DNA from: a virus
DNA: 46,309 nt
Strand: one strand, 5' to 3'
Virus record (IMG/VR): IMGVR_UViG_3300046535_000750
Location: 1 to 46,309 of that record
Positions 5,438-24,098 of this stretch are shown one piece after another. A model generated the notes under the pieces. It was not told where the DNA came from. It saw only the letters and a program-made list of their open reading frames with translations, and searched no databases. Both the position numbers and the translations under genes were made by a program. The first letter of the stretch is position 1. Each line of letters starts with the position of its first letter.

Positions 5438-6570
5438 GCGGGTCAGGCGACGGCGGCGGTGCATCGGGCGGTGACGCAGCGGCTGCTGCGGCTGCGGCTG
5501 CGGCAGGCTACGGCGGTCCGGGAGCGGCTGCGGCTGCGATGGGCTTCGGTACAACTGCGTCACCCGCAAGCACAGGATGGGGCGGACCAAGCACGTCTCC
5601 AGGACAGGCGACTGCCGCTGGCTATGGGTTCGGCAGCGGCATAGGCGGGCCGGGTTCGGCGGGCATGGCGTCAGGCTTCGGCGCGAGCACCACAGGCATG
5701 GGAAGCTTTGGCGGCGGCATGGGAGGCGCTGCGACGGGCTTCGGCGGCAGTAGCGCCACGGGCTCGAGTGTTGGCTACGGCGGCGGCTCATCAAACGCAG
5801 GTACGGGCAACGCGGGCTATGGTGGCGGCGTCGGCGGACAGGGCGGCGTGGGTGTCGGCGGAGTGACCGGCTTCGGCATGGGCGGCGCGGGCTTCGGTGG
5901 CGGCGCTGCGACAGGCGGGGGCGGCGGAACGGCGGCGGGCGGGTCCTCGCCGGGAGTCATGGGCGGTACTGGCGGGCTGGGGTCGGGGCTCAGCACATTT
6001 CAAGGACCAGCGTTTCAAGCGTTGCTGAGAGCGCTTCTCGGGCAGCAACAGGCGGGGCAACAAGGACCGCCCGGCTTTCACAATCTCGGTGTGCCGCCCG
6101 GTGTGCTTAGCGGCGTGCAAACGGCTACAACTCCCGTAACGGTGTCCGCGCTTGGCCCGCCGTCTAAAGGCGGTCAGGGGTCGCCCGCACCTGGATACAG
6201 CCCAGCGGTCGTTGCTCAGCTCAACCAGCAGGTTACGAAGCTCTATGGGAATACGCCCGTAGCCAAGGCCGTGCAGCAAGCGATCGCGCAAGCCTTAAGC
6301 ATCGGGCCAGGAGGTATAGGTTCGGACGCAGTTTCGGGCGGGGCAACGGCGCAAGCGCCCGCGACGCCCGCGCAACTCGCGCAAAACCCCGCTGTGCAGA
6401 ACTATGAGAATCAAGTGGCGATGCGTGGCTCGCCGGCTCCTGGCTATAGCGCCGCGCCTGTCGGCGTCGCCCCCGTTGCGCCCGCGACGCCCGCACAACT
6501 CGCGGCGAACCCGGCAGTGCAGAACTATGAGAACCAGGTTGCGATGGCGCGTGGGCGCCGGCCCGCATGA
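5434..6570 (+). CDS. Gly/Ala-rich virion-associated protein with C-terminal repeats
   Basis: This is a 378-aa protein. The first 190 residues are almost entirely Gly, Ala, Ser and Thr, with recurring GFG, GYGG and GGMG units. The C-terminal half has Gln/Pro-rich helices and an imperfect duplicated unit, ATPAQLAxNPAVQNYENQVAM, occurring twice. The ATGA overlap with the large internal virion protein suggests a coupled virion component. I know of no defined family, and the composition hinders homology searching. It could be an unstructured linker, a chaperone for ejection proteins or an ejected protein itself. Confidence 0.6.
   Translation: MSGSGDGGGASGGDAAAAAAAAAAGYGGPGAAAAAMGFGTTASPASTGWGGPSTSPGQATAAGYGFGSGIGGPGSAGMASGFGASTTGMGSFGGGMGGAATGFGGSSATGSSVGYGGGSSNAGTGNAGYGGGVGGQGGVGVGGVTGFGMGGAGFGGGAATGGGGGTAAGGSSPGVMGGTGGLGSGLSTFQGPAFQALLRALLGQQQAGQQGPPGFHNLGVPPGVLSGVQTATTPVTVSALGPPSKGGQGSPAPGYSPAVVAQLNQQVTKLYGNTPVAKAVQQAIAQALSIGPGGIGSDAVSGGATAQAPATPAQLAQNPAVQNYENQVAMRGSPAPGYSAAPVGVAPVAPATPAQLAANPAVQNYENQVAMARGRRPA
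6356..6546 (+). repeat. In-gene duplicated 68-bp unit
   Basis: Two near-identical stretches, about 6356-6423 and 6479-6546, both encode the ATPAQLAxNPAVQNYENQVAM unit. They are separated by a linker encoding GSPAPGYS-type sequence, a motif that also appears near 6181. Differences are mostly silent, so the protein repeat appears to be under selection. Confidence 0.75.
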
Positions 6571-7895
6571 GATTGCTGATCGTTGACCCCGCGGGTATGG
6601 CGCTCGACTTCTCGTACCGTGCGAAGCAGGCCGGCCATCACGTCAAACACTTCATCCGCCCAGACCTTAAGACCGAGCATATCGGCAAGGGATTTGTCGA
6701 CGTCGTGCGCGAGTTTCAGCCGTTCATGGAGTGGGCAGACTTGGTGTTCTGCTCCGACAACATAAAATACCTTCGAGACCTCGACGCGTACCGAGAGCGT
6801 GGCGTACCGATCATCGGCCCTTCGCAAGAGACAGCGCGCTGGGAGCAGGACCGGACTTGCGGCATAGAGATTCTAAAGAAGTGCGGCATCGATTGTCCGC
6901 CATACGAAGAGTTCAATAATTACGATAAAGCCATCGCTTACGTCAAAAAACGGAATACCCGGCTCGTCAGCAAGCCGAGCGGGGATGACGACAAGTCACT
7001 CTCCTACGTCGCCAAGACGCCCGCCGACATGGTCTATATGCTGGAGCGCTGGAAGAGAAATAATAAGCTCAAAGGCGAGTTCATCCTGCAAGACTTTATT
7101 GAAGGCGTTGAGATGGGCGTGGGCGGGTGGTTCGGCCCGCACGGGTTCAATGCAGGGTGGGAGGAAAACTTCGAGTTCAAGAAGCTCATGGATGGAGACA
7201 TGGGAGTAGCGACTGGCGAGCAGGGCACGGTCATGCGCTACGTTCGGCGCTCCAAACTCGCCAGGAAGGTGCTCGAACCCCTGACCGATCTGCTCGCTGC
7301 GGCGAACTATGTCGGCGATATCGACGTGAATTGCATCATAGACGATAAGGGTACGCCTTGGCCTTTAGAGTTTACAATGAGACCCGGCTGGCCTACCTTC
7401 AACATCGAACAAGAACTTCGCCAAGGTGATCCAGTCGAATGGTTAGCGATGCTGGCGGAAGGCCAGGACGCCCGCAATATCTTAATGGATACGATAGCGA
7501 TCGGCGTCGTTCTCTCCATTCCCGACTATCCGTACTCCCAACTAACGAGGAAGGAAGTGCTGGGAGTGCCGATCTATGGCCTGACCCCGCAGCTTCAGAA
7601 GCACGTCCATTTCTGCGAGGTGATGCAGGGCAAAGCGCCAGTGGACCGCGACGGCGCCGTAGTCGAAGAGCCGATCCCGGTGACGGCGGGCGACTACGTG
7701 CTGGTGGTGAGCGCGACGGGGCCGACGGTCTACGACGCGAAGCAGACCGCATACCGACGTCTGAAGCGTTTGATGTTGCCCAACTCCCCGATGTACCGGA
7801 CGGACATTGGCGACAGGCTCTCGAAACAGCTACCGAAAATTCAATCGCACGGTTTCGCGATGGGGATGGAGTTTTCGACGGACCCAGCGCCCTAG
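6567..7895 (+). CDS. ATP-grasp enzyme, PurD (phosphoribosylamine-glycine ligase)-like
   Basis: This is a 442-aa protein with an N-terminal Rossmann-like start (MRLLIVDPAGMALDFSYRA). A central ATP-grasp core follows: KPSGDDDKSLSY, then ILQDFIEGVEMGVGGWF, then DIDVNCIIDDKGTPWPLEF with TMRPGWPTF. The order and spacing match the PurD/carboxylate-amine ligase superfamily. In classical enzymes the last motif is E-x-N with N as a metal ligand. Here it reads E-F-T, so activity or substrate may differ. It would join a carboxylate to an amine with ATP in the cytoplasm. The gene sits at the end of the virion operon with an ATGA overlap, away from any nucleotide-metabolism genes, so substrate and role are unclear. 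Confidence 0.75.
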   Translation: MRLLIVDPAGMALDFSYRAKQAGHHVKHFIRPDLKTEHIGKGFVDVVREFQPFMEWADLVFCSDNIKYLRDLDAYRERGVPIIGPSQETARWEQDRTCGIEILKKCGIDCPPYEEFNNYDKAIAYVKKRNTRLVSKPSGDDDKSLSYVAKTPADMVYMLERWKRNNKLKGEFILQDFIEGVEMGVGGWFGPHGFNAGWEENFEFKKLMDGDMGVATGEQGTVMRYVRRSKLARKVLEPLTDLLAAANYVGDIDVNCIIDDKGTPWPLEFTMRPGWPTFNIEQELRQGDPVEWLAMLAEGQDARNILMDTIAIGVVLSIPDYPYSQLTRKEVLGVPIYGLTPQLQKHVHFCEVMQGKAPVDRDGAVVEEPIPVTAGDYVLVVSATGPTVYDAKQTAYRRLKRLMLPNSPMYRTDIGDRLSKQLPKIQSHGFAMGMEFSTDPAP

Positions 7896-15735: not shown

Positions 15736-15964
15736 CGGGCCATTTAAGTTCCACACCTAGAGCTTCGCACCAAGCCAAAAATGTCCACGCCCTCGGCTGT
15801 ACGCCGTTTTTCTCGTATCGTATTATGTCCATGTGTGAGCAGCCTATACGATGCGCGAGCTTATCGCGGCTCAAGCCTCGTGCTACGCGCAGCTCGATCA
15901 GTTTGCGCAACACCTGATGCGTAGGCAACGGCCCTTCGAATCGCGGTGGCGAGACGGGAGTCAC
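15722..15964 (-). CDS. XRE-family HTH regulator
   Basis: This is an 80-aa protein with one HTH_3 domain. RKLIELRVARGLSRDKLAHR enters helix 2, CSHMDIIRYEKNG is the recognition helix and wing, and PRAWTFLAWCEALGVEL closes the fold. The short N-terminal arm and lack of another domain suit a Cro/C1-type DNA binder acting as a dimer. It is coupled to the polymerase gene by ATGA. It could bind palindromic operators in the control region, but the target is not shown. Confidence 0.85.
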   Translation of the reverse strand: MTPVSPPRFEGPLPTHQVLRKLIELRVARGLSRDKLAHRIGCSHMDIIRYEKNGVQPRAWTFLAWCEALGVELKWPDDND

Positions 15965-17772
15965 GAGTACGTCTCCCCGATCTTACAGTCCGCATCGAGC
16001 GGCAGGCCCGGCGCCCAGTCGGGCACGTGGCGCATGATTTCGATAATGCGCTCCTTCCATAGCCTTAGATCGTAGCGCGAATCGCATAAGTCCCAGATTC
16101 CATTGAAGGGGATCAAGAGCCAAACGTCGTCGTGCGACATGCCTACGACGCTCATCAGCTTTGTATCCTCGAACCGCACCATCGCTTCGGCGGTTATGAT
16201 CCGGCTCAGCCATTGCACCACGTTCTCGACGAGCTTTGCGCCGTACATCTTAGACCAGCCACGGCGCCCGTGCAGACGCCACTCGAGCGTATTACTGCCC
16301 CACTCGAGTCTCGTGTAGTCGAGCCACGAGCCGTTAGGATGGTAGAGCCTACCCTTATCGCCGTGGAAGATGCGCCAATTGAATGTTGCGCCACGCGCGA
16401 GTTGCCCGATTGCCCACTCGCCTTCTCTCCACAAGCTAACTACGTCGCAGTGTGTCTCGCGGTAGAGCTCCACAGCGTCTGTTGCTTGCACCAGTGTCAT
16501 CTGCACTGGCGGACCATACGTGCCACGCCCAGCAGTGATTTGAAACTTAGCGCCGCCACAGCCGAACCCACAGCTTAGCTCCAGCTGCTTGCCGGTGCCG
16601 CGCTCGGTGGTGTCATCTTTCGTAAGCTCGCGTCCATAGAACTTGGAGGCGATAGGCAGGTAAGGATCGTGGCCCTGCCTGAACCGTTCTACGACGTCCT
16701 CCTGGCCGGCGAGCCAGTTCAGTATTCTGCACTCGCCTTGGGATTGGTCGGGAGCGGCAATAAGATAGCCTCTAGGCGCTCGCAATCCTGTTCTAAGCCG
16801 ATGTTGCCTAGGTAAATTTTGAAAATTGACCGCGTCTCCACCGGACCAGCGTCGGGTATGCGCGCCACAGTAGTGCAGGTAGACCGACATTGGCCCTCGG
16901 GCAGACATGTCATGAAGCCGCCCAGCTCTTGTCTCGTCAATAGTGCTTCGAACGTCCAGACGCGCTTGCGCGAGCGCTGCAACTCTCTCGTCGCTGTCCT
17001 CCAGCAGGGCACGCATGAAAGAGTCAGTTTTGGCGATGGCGGGAATTGGCCCGTTGGTTCCTTCCTTGTACTCCATCTCGACGCCTTCGGCTTCGAGTAG
17101 CGCTGTAAATCTGGCTGCTGATTGTAAGTCGGCTTCGCCCACGCCCAGCGCATACATGCGTTCGTTCTTACTCAGAAATTCGCGGTCGCGAATGTCGGCG
17201 AAGAGCTGCGCGTCGCCCACGAGCTTGGGCTCGGTGAACATGCGTATGGTGGTGTCGATAGCGCGATACTCTACTGAAGGAAACCCGCGAGCCATAGCCA
17301 CGAAAAGATCGTAAGTAGTATCGCAATCGCGAGCGCAACCGTCACCGAGAGCCCTAAGATCAGTATCGCCCAGCTCAGCCAATCGACGGCCTTTAAAACT
17401 CTCATAATCGATCGTTTTTTCGCGTAGTCCGTATTTGACTGCGAGGCTTGCGAGCGAGAGTGAGTCTTGTTGTCCATGAAGATACCTCGCCATTGAAAGC
17501 GTGCAGAGCCATCGCTTGGGCTTAATGCCGAAATGATGCGAGAGAATCAGACCGTCGAACTGCGCGTGATGGCAAAGGACCCATGCGTTGGACCAATCTA
17601 ATTTAGGATTGCGTAGCGCGTCCGCTGAGTAGTATTTAGCGGGTTTATCGCCCGCCTTAATGCCAACCAGCAGCGCTTGAAAGCGCGGATCGCGAACGTA
17701 CGCCTCCGTCGTCATCTTTTTGAGCGTGTAGTCGGAGTCGTAGTACGTCTCGAAGTCGAGCGTAATGATCAC
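15961..17772 (-). CDS. Family A DNA polymerase with 3'-5' exonuclease
   Basis: This 603-aa replicative polymerase is of the short phage kind. The exonuclease has DFE at residues 6-8 (Exo I), HAQFD at 69-73 (Exo II) and an RDCD segment near 148-151 (Exo III). The polymerase has motif A DQSQGECR near 342-349, motif B RGTGKQLELSCGFG near 395-410 and motif C SHDD near 547-550, where the usual HDE is HDD. It copies the phage genome with the primase-helicase. ATGA overlaps link it to the genes on both sides. The start ATG at 17772 gives the family's typical N-terminus, so I am confident in it. Confidence 0.95.
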   Translation of the reverse strand: MIITLDFETYYDSDYTLKKMTTEAYVRDPRFQALLVGIKAGDKPAKYYSADALRNPKLDWSNAWVLCHHAQFDGLILSHHFGIKPKRWLCTLSMARYLHGQQDSLSLASLAVKYGLREKTIDYESFKGRRLAELGDTDLRALGDGCARDCDTTYDLFVAMARGFPSVEYRAIDTTIRMFTEPKLVGDAQLFADIRDREFLSKNERMYALGVGEADLQSAARFTALLEAEGVEMEYKEGTNGPIPAIAKTDSFMRALLEDSDERVAALAQARLDVRSTIDETRAGRLHDMSARGPMSVYLHYCGAHTRRWSGGDAVNFQNLPRQHRLRTGLRAPRGYLIAAPDQSQGECRILNWLAGQEDVVERFRQGHDPYLPIASKFYGRELTKDDTTERGTGKQLELSCGFGCGGAKFQITAGRGTYGPPVQMTLVQATDAVELYRETHCDVVSLWREGEWAIGQLARGATFNWRIFHGDKGRLYHPNGSWLDYTRLEWGSNTLEWRLHGRRGWSKMYGAKLVENVVQWLSRIITAEAMVRFEDTKLMSVVGMSHDDVWLLIPFNGIWDLCDSRYDLRLWKERIIEIMRHVPDWAPGLPLDADCKIGETYS

Positions 17773-18557: not shown

Positions 18558-18585
18558 ACCATAACAGGTTTAACGCATTTGTCAA
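18558..18585 (-). promoter_or_regulatory. Leftward sigma-70-like promoter (copy 1)
   Basis: TTGACA at 18585-18580, a 16-base spacer and TATGGT at 18563-18558, read leftward. Bases 18561-18585 repeat exactly at 13617-13641. The -35 box overlaps the stop of the small Cys-rich gene upstream. It would drive the coiled-coil gene through at least the polymerase. Confidence 0.75.
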
Positions 18586-18755
18586 TCGAGAATTTTAATC
18601 TCGGTCGTGCATTTCTTTTCGTCTACGCTGTCCTTAAGCTTCGTCATCGTGGCGACGCACAGTTCGTCGCTACCCTTGCACACGAGCAAGAGCGACGTGT
18701 CAGTCTCGCATTTGATCGTCGTCATCCACGTAGCGAAGGCGAGAGCGATCAGCAT
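18582..18755 (-). CDS. Small Cys-rich protein with hydrophobic N-terminus
   Basis: This is a 57-aa protein from ATG 18755, which has a strong GGAGG site. The first 13 residues are hydrophobic (MLIALAFATWMTT) and four cysteines follow, an even number compatible with two disulfides. The leader lacks a positively charged start, so export is only possible, not clear. It sits between the zinc-ribbon gene and the promoter of the polymerase cluster. No family recognised. Confidence 0.6.
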   Translation of the reverse strand: MLIALAFATWMTTIKCETDTSLLLVCKGSDELCVATMTKLKDSVDEKKCTTEIKILD

Positions 18756-18988
18756 GGTTTTTCCTCCGTTTTGTCTTCGCACTCGCTGCATGACCACGCC
18801 CTTGCCTCTTCAGGCACTGGCCAGCGCGTTTCGTCGTAGGGCAACCCGCAAAAGTCGCACTTCTCAGGCAGGCCGCCACGGATACTTATGAGTAGGTCGA
18901 GCGTGTTTATTTGAGCGCACGCGCCGTGCGCGCCCTCCTGAGCACTGCTATGCCCATCATTGCGAACCCGGTGAGCAGCATAGCCCAC
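18749..18988 (-). CDS. Small zinc-ribbon protein; start uncertain
   Basis: The frame ending at 18749 encodes a clear two-knuckle ribbon, CDFC and CSEC spaced by about 20 residues, ending in an acidic tail. The only start I can find is a GTG at 18988, which gives 79 aa but an 82-base overlap with the PEP-CTERM-like gene. The real start may be nearer 18905 with a rare codon. The ribbon itself looks genuine. Function unknown; such mini-proteins often bind nucleic acid or host enzymes. Confidence 0.5.
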   Translation of the reverse strand: MGYAAHRVRNDGHSSAQEGAHGACAQINTLDLLISIRGGLPEKCDFCGLPYDETRWPVPEEARAWSCSECEDKTEEKPC

Positions 18989-19506
18989 GTGCCCATCTCG
19001 GGCGCTCCAGAGGCCGCGTTGAAGTTCCTACTGGTGTCCGCAAACACGCCGTACTCGTGCGCGCCCGACGAGATGATCATGTCGGAGAACGGCGACAAGC
19101 CTTCAATCTTGAAGCCGATGTTTTCATAGCCACTCAACGTCACGTTAGGGTCGCTCAACCCTAGCGCATGGTCGATGTCGTGTAGGGAGATGCTGACCGG
19201 GCCGTGGTCGGTTCGGAACGTCAGGCCATTGCCGGAACTCGCGGTCGCCTCACGCAGATACATCGCCACGCCATCTTGCGGGGTCGCGAAATGAACGTCT
19301 GTAAGGTCAGCGCGCAGATAGTTCGTATGCGCGATGAAGTTGGGATTCACGAGCGATCCCTGATTAGCCACCACTCCAGTGCCGTTGAACGTGGCGGTGG
19401 TCGCGCCCCAATCGACATTGCCTGCGTGCTGGCCGACCGTGGCGACGTCGAAGCCATTCCAGTTCGTATCGCCACCATGAATGGCGATGATTGTGATCGT
19501 GCTCAA
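18907..19506 (-). CDS. PEP-CTERM-like surface protein
   Basis: This is a 199-aa protein. Residues about 1-165 are beta-rich, with many Thr, Asn and Gly. The last 32 residues (from 168) form a tripartite tail: APEMGTWAMLL, then a hydrophobic helix, then RRAR and a basic end. That is the layout of PEP-CTERM sorting signals, which exosortase handles in some Gram-negative bacteria; PE-x-x-TWAM variants are common in alphaproteobacteria. The TTG start at 19506 is set by AAGGAG seven bases upstream. An in-frame stop nine codons earlier rules out a longer N-terminus. No signal peptide is present, which is unusual for this class. Confidence 0.75.
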   Translation of the reverse strand: MSTITIIAIHGGDTNWNGFDVATVGQHAGNVDWGATTATFNGTGVVANQGSLVNPNFIAHTNYLRADLTDVHFATPQDGVAMYLREATASSGNGLTFRTDHGPVSISLHDIDHALGLSDPNVTLSGYENIGFKIEGLSPFSDMIISSGAHEYGVFADTSRNFNAASGAPEMGTWAMLLTGFAMMGIAVLRRARTARALK

Positions 19507-19549
19507 TGTGAAGCTCCTTAAGGCTCGTCAGTGACGCTACCTGCGCCAG

Positions 19550-21960: not shown

Positions 21961-22112
21961 CATGTGGCCGGCAATCCTGCCGGTGACCCGGCTGCTGACA
22001 TGTTGTCGGCAATCGGTATGGTTTGATCCGATACTTGGAACATTCATTCCCCCTACGTTGACAATCACTCACTGACTTGACCGTGGCTCTCCGCAGGGTC
22101 ACGGTCCCCTTC

Positions 22113-24098
22113 ATGGCCTCAGATCAAGAGATACTCATCCAGAAGCTGGTCAGTTCGCCGTTGACCGCGCATGGTTTATTTTTCGGCGAGCGACATTCGG
22201 TAGCGTCTCCCAAGTTTCATGCGAGCATCATCGATGACTGGCACAGTCAGCGACCCAAGGTTCTCACTCTTGCCTTTCGGGGCGCTGCTAAAAGTACACT
22301 TGCTGAGGAGGCGATCACAGTCATCGCCGCGCTCGGTCAGACCCGCAACTGCGTCATCCTTGGCGAGTCTGAGGCGAGAGCTGCTGAGCGGTTGCGTTCG
22401 ATCAAGCACAATTTCGAGGCCAACGATTTCATCGAAGGCGCGCTTCATGTCGGCCCTGGAGACATCTGGACCGACACCCGATGCACGCTGACCAACGGCG
22501 TAATCATCCAGGCGTATGGACGCTACCAATCGCTGCGTGGAGTGAAGCACCTTGACCAGCGTCCCGATCTTATCTTCATGGACGATTTGGAGGATAAGGA
22601 GAGCGTGTCTACACCGGAGGCTCGTCATAAGACGCGCCAATGGTACACAAGTACGGTTGTTCCGGCGCTTGCCGTGGGCGGACGCATGCGTATGGCGGCG
22701 ACGCCCTTACATCCTGAAGCGCTGGCAGTCACGCTTGGCAAGACGTCGCAGTGGGTCCAGCGGCTCTATCCGATAATTTACAAGGGAGACGAAGGCGAAT
22801 GGGTAGCGACGTGGCCTGCGATGTATCCGGTCGAGTGGGCGCTGGCCAAGCAACTCGAGATGGAGGAAGTCGGACAGGGCGAAGACTTCGTGCAGGAGTA
22901 CCTGTGTCAAGCGACCGATCCCGCCTCACAGACTTTTACCAGCGATATGTTTCGCGTCGCCCCACGTGCTCGCTCTTATCACGCGGTCTATGCAGTGTAC
23001 GATCCTGCCCGAACTACGAACAAGAGTTCGGCGACAACGGGGAAAGCTGTTTGCTCTTGGATTGGCTCGAAGCTCATCGTGTGGGAGAGTTTCGCGCGAA
23101 AGATGATGCCCGATGAAATCGTCAAAGACATCTTCGATACCGACGAGCGATATTCTCCGGTGGCGATCGGATTTGAAGAAAATGGACTCAATGAATGGGC
23201 GCTCCAGCCAATCCGCGCTGAGCAGCTCCGAAGGGGATACTCAATACCGTTGCGCCCACTGTCTGCGCCGAAAGGGAAGCTCGACTTCATTCGAGGTCTT
23301 CAGCCATATTTCAAAGCTGGGGAAGTTGAATTTGCGGTTGACATGCCTGAATTGCGGCAGCAACTATTGGGCTTCCCCACCGGACTGATCGATGCGCCGA
23401 ACGCGCTCGCCTACATGCTCAAGATGAAATCTGGAGTGCCGATCTATGAAAACTTTAGGGAGGAAATTATCTCCAGCGACATACGCTGCACTGCTCGAAC
23501 TCCGGTGTACCTTGTCCTCAACACAGATGGACGTGTCACTACAGGACAACTTGTCCAGATGGCTAGAGGACGCTTACAGGTCTTGTCTGACTGGCTCAAC
23601 GAAGGCGACGCCGGAACCGCCTTGCCAGACATCATCCAATCTGCCAGATTAGAGCTGCCTACGGCCAGCCAGGGCCTCGGGGCGCAGGCCGTTGCTCCTT
23701 CCAGCTTGCGCCCCATCGCTCCACGGGATCACTTCGATGAATATTCGACCCTCGCGCTGCGTGCTGTGGCCAAACGATCGAAGCTCATCGTTCAGCGAGG
23801 CGGAGATATCGTTGCAGGTCGAGAGGAACTTCGTGCGCTCCTTCGACGCTTTGTTCACGACGAGCCCGCTATCGTCGTACACCCCCGCGCCCGCTGGACG
23901 CTGCGCGCGCTGGCCGGTGGCTACTCCCGCCAGCTCGACAGCCCGGACCCCACTCCCGGCGCCTACGCGGTCCTGATGGCGGGGCTGGAGAGCTTCGCGG
24001 CCCTGCTCAGGAGCGGACTGGACGACGTTGACAGTCAGCCCGCTTATGCTTACACCGAGGATGGTCGCAAATATATTTCGGCTTTAGCGAGGTCGTGA
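22113..24098 (+). CDS. terL: Terminase large subunit
   Basis: This is a 661-aa packaging motor from ATG 22113. TTG 22077 and GTG 22083 are in frame but, like the ATG, lack a clear ribosome binding site. The ATPase has RGAAKST as Walker A about 55 residues from the start and DLIFMDD as Walker B near 152-158. The nuclease follows with VYDPA, GFEENG and DAPNALAYML as its acidic motifs. The long C-terminal region after about residue 430 carries no motif I recognise. It cuts and pumps DNA into the procapsid through the portal. No small terminase gene was recognised beside it. It is the first gene of the right arm. Confidence 0.92.
   Translation: MASDQEILIQKLVSSPLTAHGLFFGERHSVASPKFHASIIDDWHSQRPKVLTLAFRGAAKSTLAEEAITVIAALGQTRNCVILGESEARAAERLRSIKHNFEANDFIEGALHVGPGDIWTDTRCTLTNGVIIQAYGRYQSLRGVKHLDQRPDLIFMDDLEDKESVSTPEARHKTRQWYTSTVVPALAVGGRMRMAATPLHPEALAVTLGKTSQWVQRLYPIIYKGDEGEWVATWPAMYPVEWALAKQLEMEEVGQGEDFVQEYLCQATDPASQTFTSDMFRVAPRARSYHAVYAVYDPARTTNKSSATTGKAVCSWIGSKLIVWESFARKMMPDEIVKDIFDTDERYSPVAIGFEENGLNEWALQPIRAEQLRRGYSIPLRPLSAPKGKLDFIRGLQPYFKAGEVEFAVDMPELRQQLLGFPTGLIDAPNALAYMLKMKSGVPIYENFREEIISSDIRCTARTPVYLVLNTDGRVTTGQLVQMARGRLQVLSDWLNEGDAGTALPDIIQSARLELPTASQGLGAQAVAPSSLRPIAPRDHFDEYSTLALRAVAKRSKLIVQRGGDIVAGREELRALLRRFVHDEPAIVVHPRARWTLRALAGGYSRQLDSPDPTPGAYAVLMAGLESFAALLRSGLDDVDSQPAYAYTEDGRKYISALARS

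Follow-up and report, generated by a model that had tools for sequence, protein, structure and literature searches.

The small accessory membrane or exported proteins that phages encode in early or accessory regions for superinfection exclusion and lysogenic conversion of the cell surface are known phage counterparts of the open reading frame (ORF) described here, which resembles them as a small accessory gene in such a region, and none of them is known to use the exosortase route. The closest described cellular system is that of the PEP-CTERM substrates of the exosortase EpsH (TIGR02595, PF07589, NF035944). In the portion of PMC1569441 considered, these proteins cross the inner membrane by means of a signal peptide and are held by a C-terminal helix with its basic end inside, and EpsH reads the PEP motif at the outer (periplasmic) face of the inner membrane after signal-peptide export. 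In viruses, proteins of family TIGR03118, whose C-terminus putatively interacts with exosortase, have been reported on Yellowstone hot-spring virus contigs (n=13, in the section of PMC11003980 concerned); these are likewise cellular-type proteins with such a C-terminus on virus contigs, but belong to another family and another habitat than the present ORF. Within the open-licence literature covered, including the accessible parts of PMC12642866, PMC1569441, PMC11003980 and PMC4886054, phage-encoded PEP-CTERM proteins were untreated beyond this TIGR03118 remark. The ORF analysed here shares with PEP-CTERM substrates a C-terminal PE, one hydrophobic helix and an Arg-rich end, has likewise a body without homologues, and possesses a complete signal-peptide form in a sister phage. 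It differs from them in lacking a signal peptide, in having PEM for PEP, in scoring below the curated cut-offs and in being carried by a phage.

The window, i.e. the whole stretch of DNA analysed, is an IMG/VR virus record of 46,309 bases. It represents a tailed phage, since a terminase large subunit is present, and it also encodes a family A DNA polymerase, a DNA helicase, a primase, an SU10-type adaptor and a tail lysozyme. No named phage resembled its first 25 kb in a megablast search, indicating a poorly sampled phage lineage. The ORF with the PEP-CTERM-like tail lies between the polymerase and the terminase (Table 1) and shares both its strand and its gene block with the DNA polymerase, helicase and primase genes, so the early phase suggested by the original prediction is plausible. 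No repeats were found around the ORF, and consensus promoters near it were pattern matches only, to which no weight was given. Elsewhere in the window, a PurD-like protein (6567-7895, plus strand; GARS_A 31.3 bits with a cut-off of 27, GARS_C 31.0 bits with a cut-off of 34.8) is predicted to be a purine-synthesis or nucleotide-modification gene product.

Table 1. Position of the tail-bearing ORF, its sequence elements and its neighbours in the window.
Feature	Position	Strand	Remarks
Family A DNA polymerase	15961..17772	-	72-74% identical to L122
57-aa Cys-containing protein, hydrophobic N-terminus	18582..18755	-	phmmer 2e-14 versus L122 6186-6359 (-)
79-aa ORF, paired Cys motifs	18749..18988	-	later start likely
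ORF with PEP-CTERM-like tail	18907..19506	-	199 aa, TTG start, without signal peptide
Tail codons 167-199, GA-PE-MGT + helix + RRARTARALK	18910..19008	-	homologous to L122 tail
Hydrophobic stretch, residues 174-189	18940..18987	-	WAMLLTGFAMMGIAVL
In-frame TGA and 7 start-less codons RALRSFT	19507..19530	-	DNA aligns to L122 signal-peptide start
AAGGAG, likely ribosome-binding site	19514..19519	-	7 nt before TTG
Upstream small gene common to L122	19874..20143	-	54% identical; synteny anchor
Terminase large subunit	22077..24098	+	87% identical to L122

The 600-nt frame of the ORF was open in only 1 of 5000 mononucleotide shuffles. Its product ends in APEMGTWAMLLTGFAMMGIAVLRRARTARALK, which presents a PE motif, then a helix, then an Arg cluster; the hydrophobic stretch followed by RRARTARALK corresponds to a transmembrane helix with a terminal basic cluster, and the third residue of the motif is Met. 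NF035944 (NCBIfam PEPxxWA-CTERM) aligned over positions 2-24 of its 24 with residues 169-191 of the protein (E 1.3e-4), reaching 21.8 bits for a curated cut-off of 35, and three more PEP-CTERM families matched, all below cut-off. TIGR02595 was absent from the NCBIfam matches, and there was no Pfam match at E<=1, PF07589 included, and no PHROG match. The motif-helix-arginine layout of exosortase substrates claimed by the original prediction is present, and models related to the TIGR02595 proposed as a check do match it, under their cut-offs. A complete lack of matches to PEP-CTERM models, the first half of what would have refuted the prediction, thus did not occur, and the assignment of the tail to the exosortase-substrate type is supported. 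Single-sequence AlphaFold prediction of the protein gave a mean pLDDT of 35.7, with usable confidence for the helix at 171-196 only. The body contains no Cys and a single Lys, with 5.4% K+R+E+C. It resembles in this the other PEP-CTERM bodies (median 6.4%), which favours derivation from such a substrate, but the long structural-type proteins of the same phage are similar to it in composition too.

Signal peptides were scored on a simple scale of our own. From its TTG, the window protein reached a hydrophobic score of 1.44 with a charge of 0 and was not scored as having a signal peptide. No ATG, GTG or TTG is found between the upstream in-frame TGA, 7 codons away, and the TTG, and the claimed absence of a signal peptide consequently holds for any usable start. 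A hidden signal peptide in another upstream frame was ruled out, no hydrophobic stretch being found there. The strong Shine-Dalgarno sequence before the TTG suggests that the short form is really translated. Once the codons RALRSFT are joined in frame to LSTITIIAI, the score rises to 2.07 with a charge of +1, which is signal-peptide-like despite the missing start codon, and the window frame may for this reason hold the remnant of a signal peptide.

A complete form was found in a sister phage represented by a contig of 19,413 bases (L122), of which the terminase and DNA polymerase identities with the window are given in Table 1. Its tail gene sits between the same two genes as the window ORF and after the same small upstream gene. 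The 57-aa gene, which matches no Pfam family, follows the tail gene in the window and in L122 alike, its Cys residues conserved, and the 79-aa ORF is placed between the two in the window and is missing from that interval in L122. The L122 protein, of 130 aa, consists of a signal peptide (MRKLLLSGVLIAWSAPALA) that is clear by eye (heuristic score 2.36, charge +2), a short region, a Pro-rich linker and the tail VPETSTWLMLGTGFAMVGLMGLRRARTARSLA, with PET instead of PEP as its motif. It scored 16.0 bits on TIGR02595, at the cut-off of 16 and hence borderline (E 0.016); its scores on other PEP-CTERM families, 24.2 bits at most, were under the respective cut-offs. All substrate features, namely signal peptide, motif, helix, Arg tail and a borderline curated score, are thus gathered in one phage protein, for which no homologues were found among phages. 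Such a complete signal-peptide form, in a sister phage and at the same place, is new here. The alphaproteobacterial host originally proposed could not be established: the best PEP-CTERM models of the L122 protein are NF038119 and NF038129, which we take to be betaproteobacterial models. Two strict tail patterns gave 0 matches each in host genomes, nulls that say little given the strictness of the patterns.

The tails of the two phages are homologous at the DNA level, with 70 of 99 nt identical (dN 0.30, dS 0.59) and RRARTAR unchanged, and so is the DNA upstream of the start. The bodies of the two proteins are not alignable, and blastp gave no body match. Judged from these alignments, this is one accessory place where the tail has been kept and the body exchanged, since tail and pre-start DNA are homologous and bodies are not. 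Because L122 carries at the same place a homologous tail together with a signal peptide, the window copy most likely originated, by descent or by recombination, from a complete substrate of the exosortase type, and the gene probably represents a decayed or altered form of a phage-borne gene for an exosortase substrate or surface protein. The window copy has most likely lost its export start, which fits the start-less, signal-like codons and their DNA alignment to L122, keeping in mind that a single sister phage does not polarise the direction of the change (signal peptide lost versus gained). Our main reading, to which we give a probability of about 0.6, is that the window ORF belongs to the accessory (moron-type) genes of phages and goes back to an exosortase substrate encoded by a phage, with its body exchanged and its export start lost. 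The window copy would in this way illustrate how such genes change, with place and tail kept, body swapped and export start missing.

The distribution of the gene among relatives bears on a first alternative, namely that it is a captured fragment of a host gene, functionless in the phage. NF035944 found nothing in the 28 records of terminase relatives other than L122 (29 terminase loci in all), and among 56 polymerase loci the tail regex finds no credible tail outside the L122 contig, one implausible frame in L160 being its other match. The strict tail regex, applied to the window together with ~1.08 Mb of DNA from related phages, retrieved the window, the L122 contig (present in duplicate) and the same implausible short L160 frame, against 1 match in its shuffled control. 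Searches for other carriers by terminase profile (29 loci), polymerase (56), small gene (1) and tail DNA pattern (1 contig) led to the L122 contig only. The tail gene is, as far as sampled, confined to two sister phages. The original prediction had also proposed a search for homologues in phages, and this returned nothing: no homologue of the window protein was detected in phages (tblastn, E<=1), in plasmids (E<=1) or in IMG/VR by exact-peptide seeds. As no relatives of its body were found in the phages, plasmids and viral contigs searched, the body is not demonstrable as a surface domain. The absence of the gene from the 28 terminase relatives and, bar the L160 frame, from 55 polymerase loci speaks for a captured fragment, as does a GC3 of 0.755 compared with 0.66 for the genes of the genome. 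However, the same place and tail are shared by two phages whose core proteins differ by ~13-28%, and we consider a functionless fragment unlikely, with a share of probability that still deserves attention.

Another alternative is that the tail does no more than anchor a phage protein of the exclusion or lysis type in the inner membrane by its C-terminus, its likeness to PEP-CTERM being convergent. The score below the curated cut-off, the Met in third position of the motif and the lack of a PF07589 match are consistent with such an anchor. On the other hand, the window tail matches four PEP-CTERM families, and its L122 counterpart, scoring at the TIGR02595 cut-off, combines a signal peptide with PE, helix and Arg tail, which makes convergence improbable.

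Derivation from a phage-borne substrate, as preferred here, leaves the question of whether the signal-less form could itself be functional, its tail anchoring a cytoplasmic-facing or unusually inserted protein that would bind or block exosortase or another membrane target. The 199-codon open frame with its good ribosome site, the kept tail with RRARTAR unchanged relative to L122 and a dN/dS of ~0.5 over 33 codons are all compatible with function. Nevertheless, the Arg-rich C-terminus should be cytoplasmic and the 165-aa body is without export signal, so under the topology given in the relevant part of PMC1569441 the PE motif would be on the side of the membrane opposite to that where exosortase acts. 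In addition, signal peptides accompany nearly all of the other viral tails among the matches listed. We therefore give a functional signal-less form little credence. The last explanation, a small assembly or sequencing error hiding an L122-like start, can draw on the 7 signal-peptide-like in-frame codons before the TTG and on the DNA alignment to the L122 signal-peptide start, but no single indel visibly restores a signal peptide, there are differences at several bases and the TTG is preceded, at a suitable distance, by a good ribosome site, which leaves this explanation with scant likelihood.

In the mechanism proposed, the signal peptide of the L122 protein would lead to Sec export, its C-terminal PE-helix-Arg tail would keep it anchored in the inner membrane until the host exosortase cut at PE, whereupon the body would go to the cell surface or exopolysaccharide. 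Phages would likely use such exosortase substrates to change the infected-cell surface, for superinfection control, adsorption of sister virions, or adhesion. The L122 protein fits the published PEP-CTERM model, whereas the window protein, in its encoded form, cannot: its PE motif would fail to reach the periplasmic face where exosortase acts, and the copy would persist as a cytoplasmic or inner-membrane-associated remnant barred from the normal sorting route. Use, imitation or jamming of that route, as originally suggested for the window copy, is therefore unsupported, PEP being read after signal-peptide export in the portion of PMC1569441 concerned and export being absent here. The broader part of the prediction, a phage protein in the surface-sorting route, is better supported, through the tail type, the signal-peptide homologue in L122 and the recurrence described below; this support does not extend to the signal-less copy itself, which taken alone is weak evidence for any function.

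A degenerate PExxxWA..GF...G pattern was found in at least 120 IMG/VR stretches, with 127 tail frames among the matches listed. A signal peptide was scored in 112 of these 127 listed frames, compared with 144 of the 1494 frames in a control set, which were of comparable length and had no such tail. Among the other listed frames, 8 were cut off, 4 lacked a usable start and 3 miss the scoring rule and are signal-peptide-like by eye. NF035944 was above cut-off in 17 of 49, 38 of 49 and 45 of 50 records of three sets, of which the first includes the 29 terminase relatives with L122 among them, and two records (G042 and G047) occur in two sets. Among the listed tail-bearing records of at least 35 kb, chosen by length, Terminase_6N was found in 22 of 55 and above cut-off in 19, a lower bound as this is one terminase family; many of the contigs behind the at least 120 stretches may include host DNA, and some of the tail genes may belong to it. 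Exosortase (PF09721) was detected in none of the same 55 virus records, and the enzyme would have to be the host's. We propose, as a tentative reading, that phages of exosortase-bearing bacteria recurrently carry substrates without exosortase and borrow the host enzyme for surface display, the window being a member without export signal. This wider idea of phage-borne exosortase substrates is better supported than use or jamming of the sorting route by the window copy, because of the at least 120 IMG/VR stretches with tails, nearly all the untruncated ones with signal peptides and some in clear phage genomes. If phages routinely bring exosortase substrates, the exosortase route joins phage-host conflict, for which the genes of L122 and of a further contig, L099, offer direct and small test cases.

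Gene context was checked closely in two pairs of records (L099/L209 and L050/L210), where a PEP-CTERM gene with a signal peptide is flanked by connector genes on one side and a baseplate gene on the other, with scaffold and major head genes also on the connector side in L099; the L209 protein scored 32.4 bits on PF07589 (cut-off 20.7). Some neighbours of the tail genes were also scanned in L075, L024, L081 and L088, mostly without matches. In the structural region of two of these records, an open frame of 1241-1260 codons faces the PEP-CTERM gene (L209 1902-5627, minus strand; L210 2711-6493, plus strand); it has no Pfam or PHROG match in L209 and no PHROG match in L210. In L030, L055, G044, G046, G130, G123 and other virus records, two PEP-CTERM genes lie at a short distance from each other on the same strand. 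Near the tail gene of L024 lies a possible beta-helix or pectate-lyase-like protein, below Pfam cut-offs, and L009 and L024 encode near-identical proteins of 138-141 aa with a signal-like start, a Gly-rich linker and a PEP-CTERM tail.
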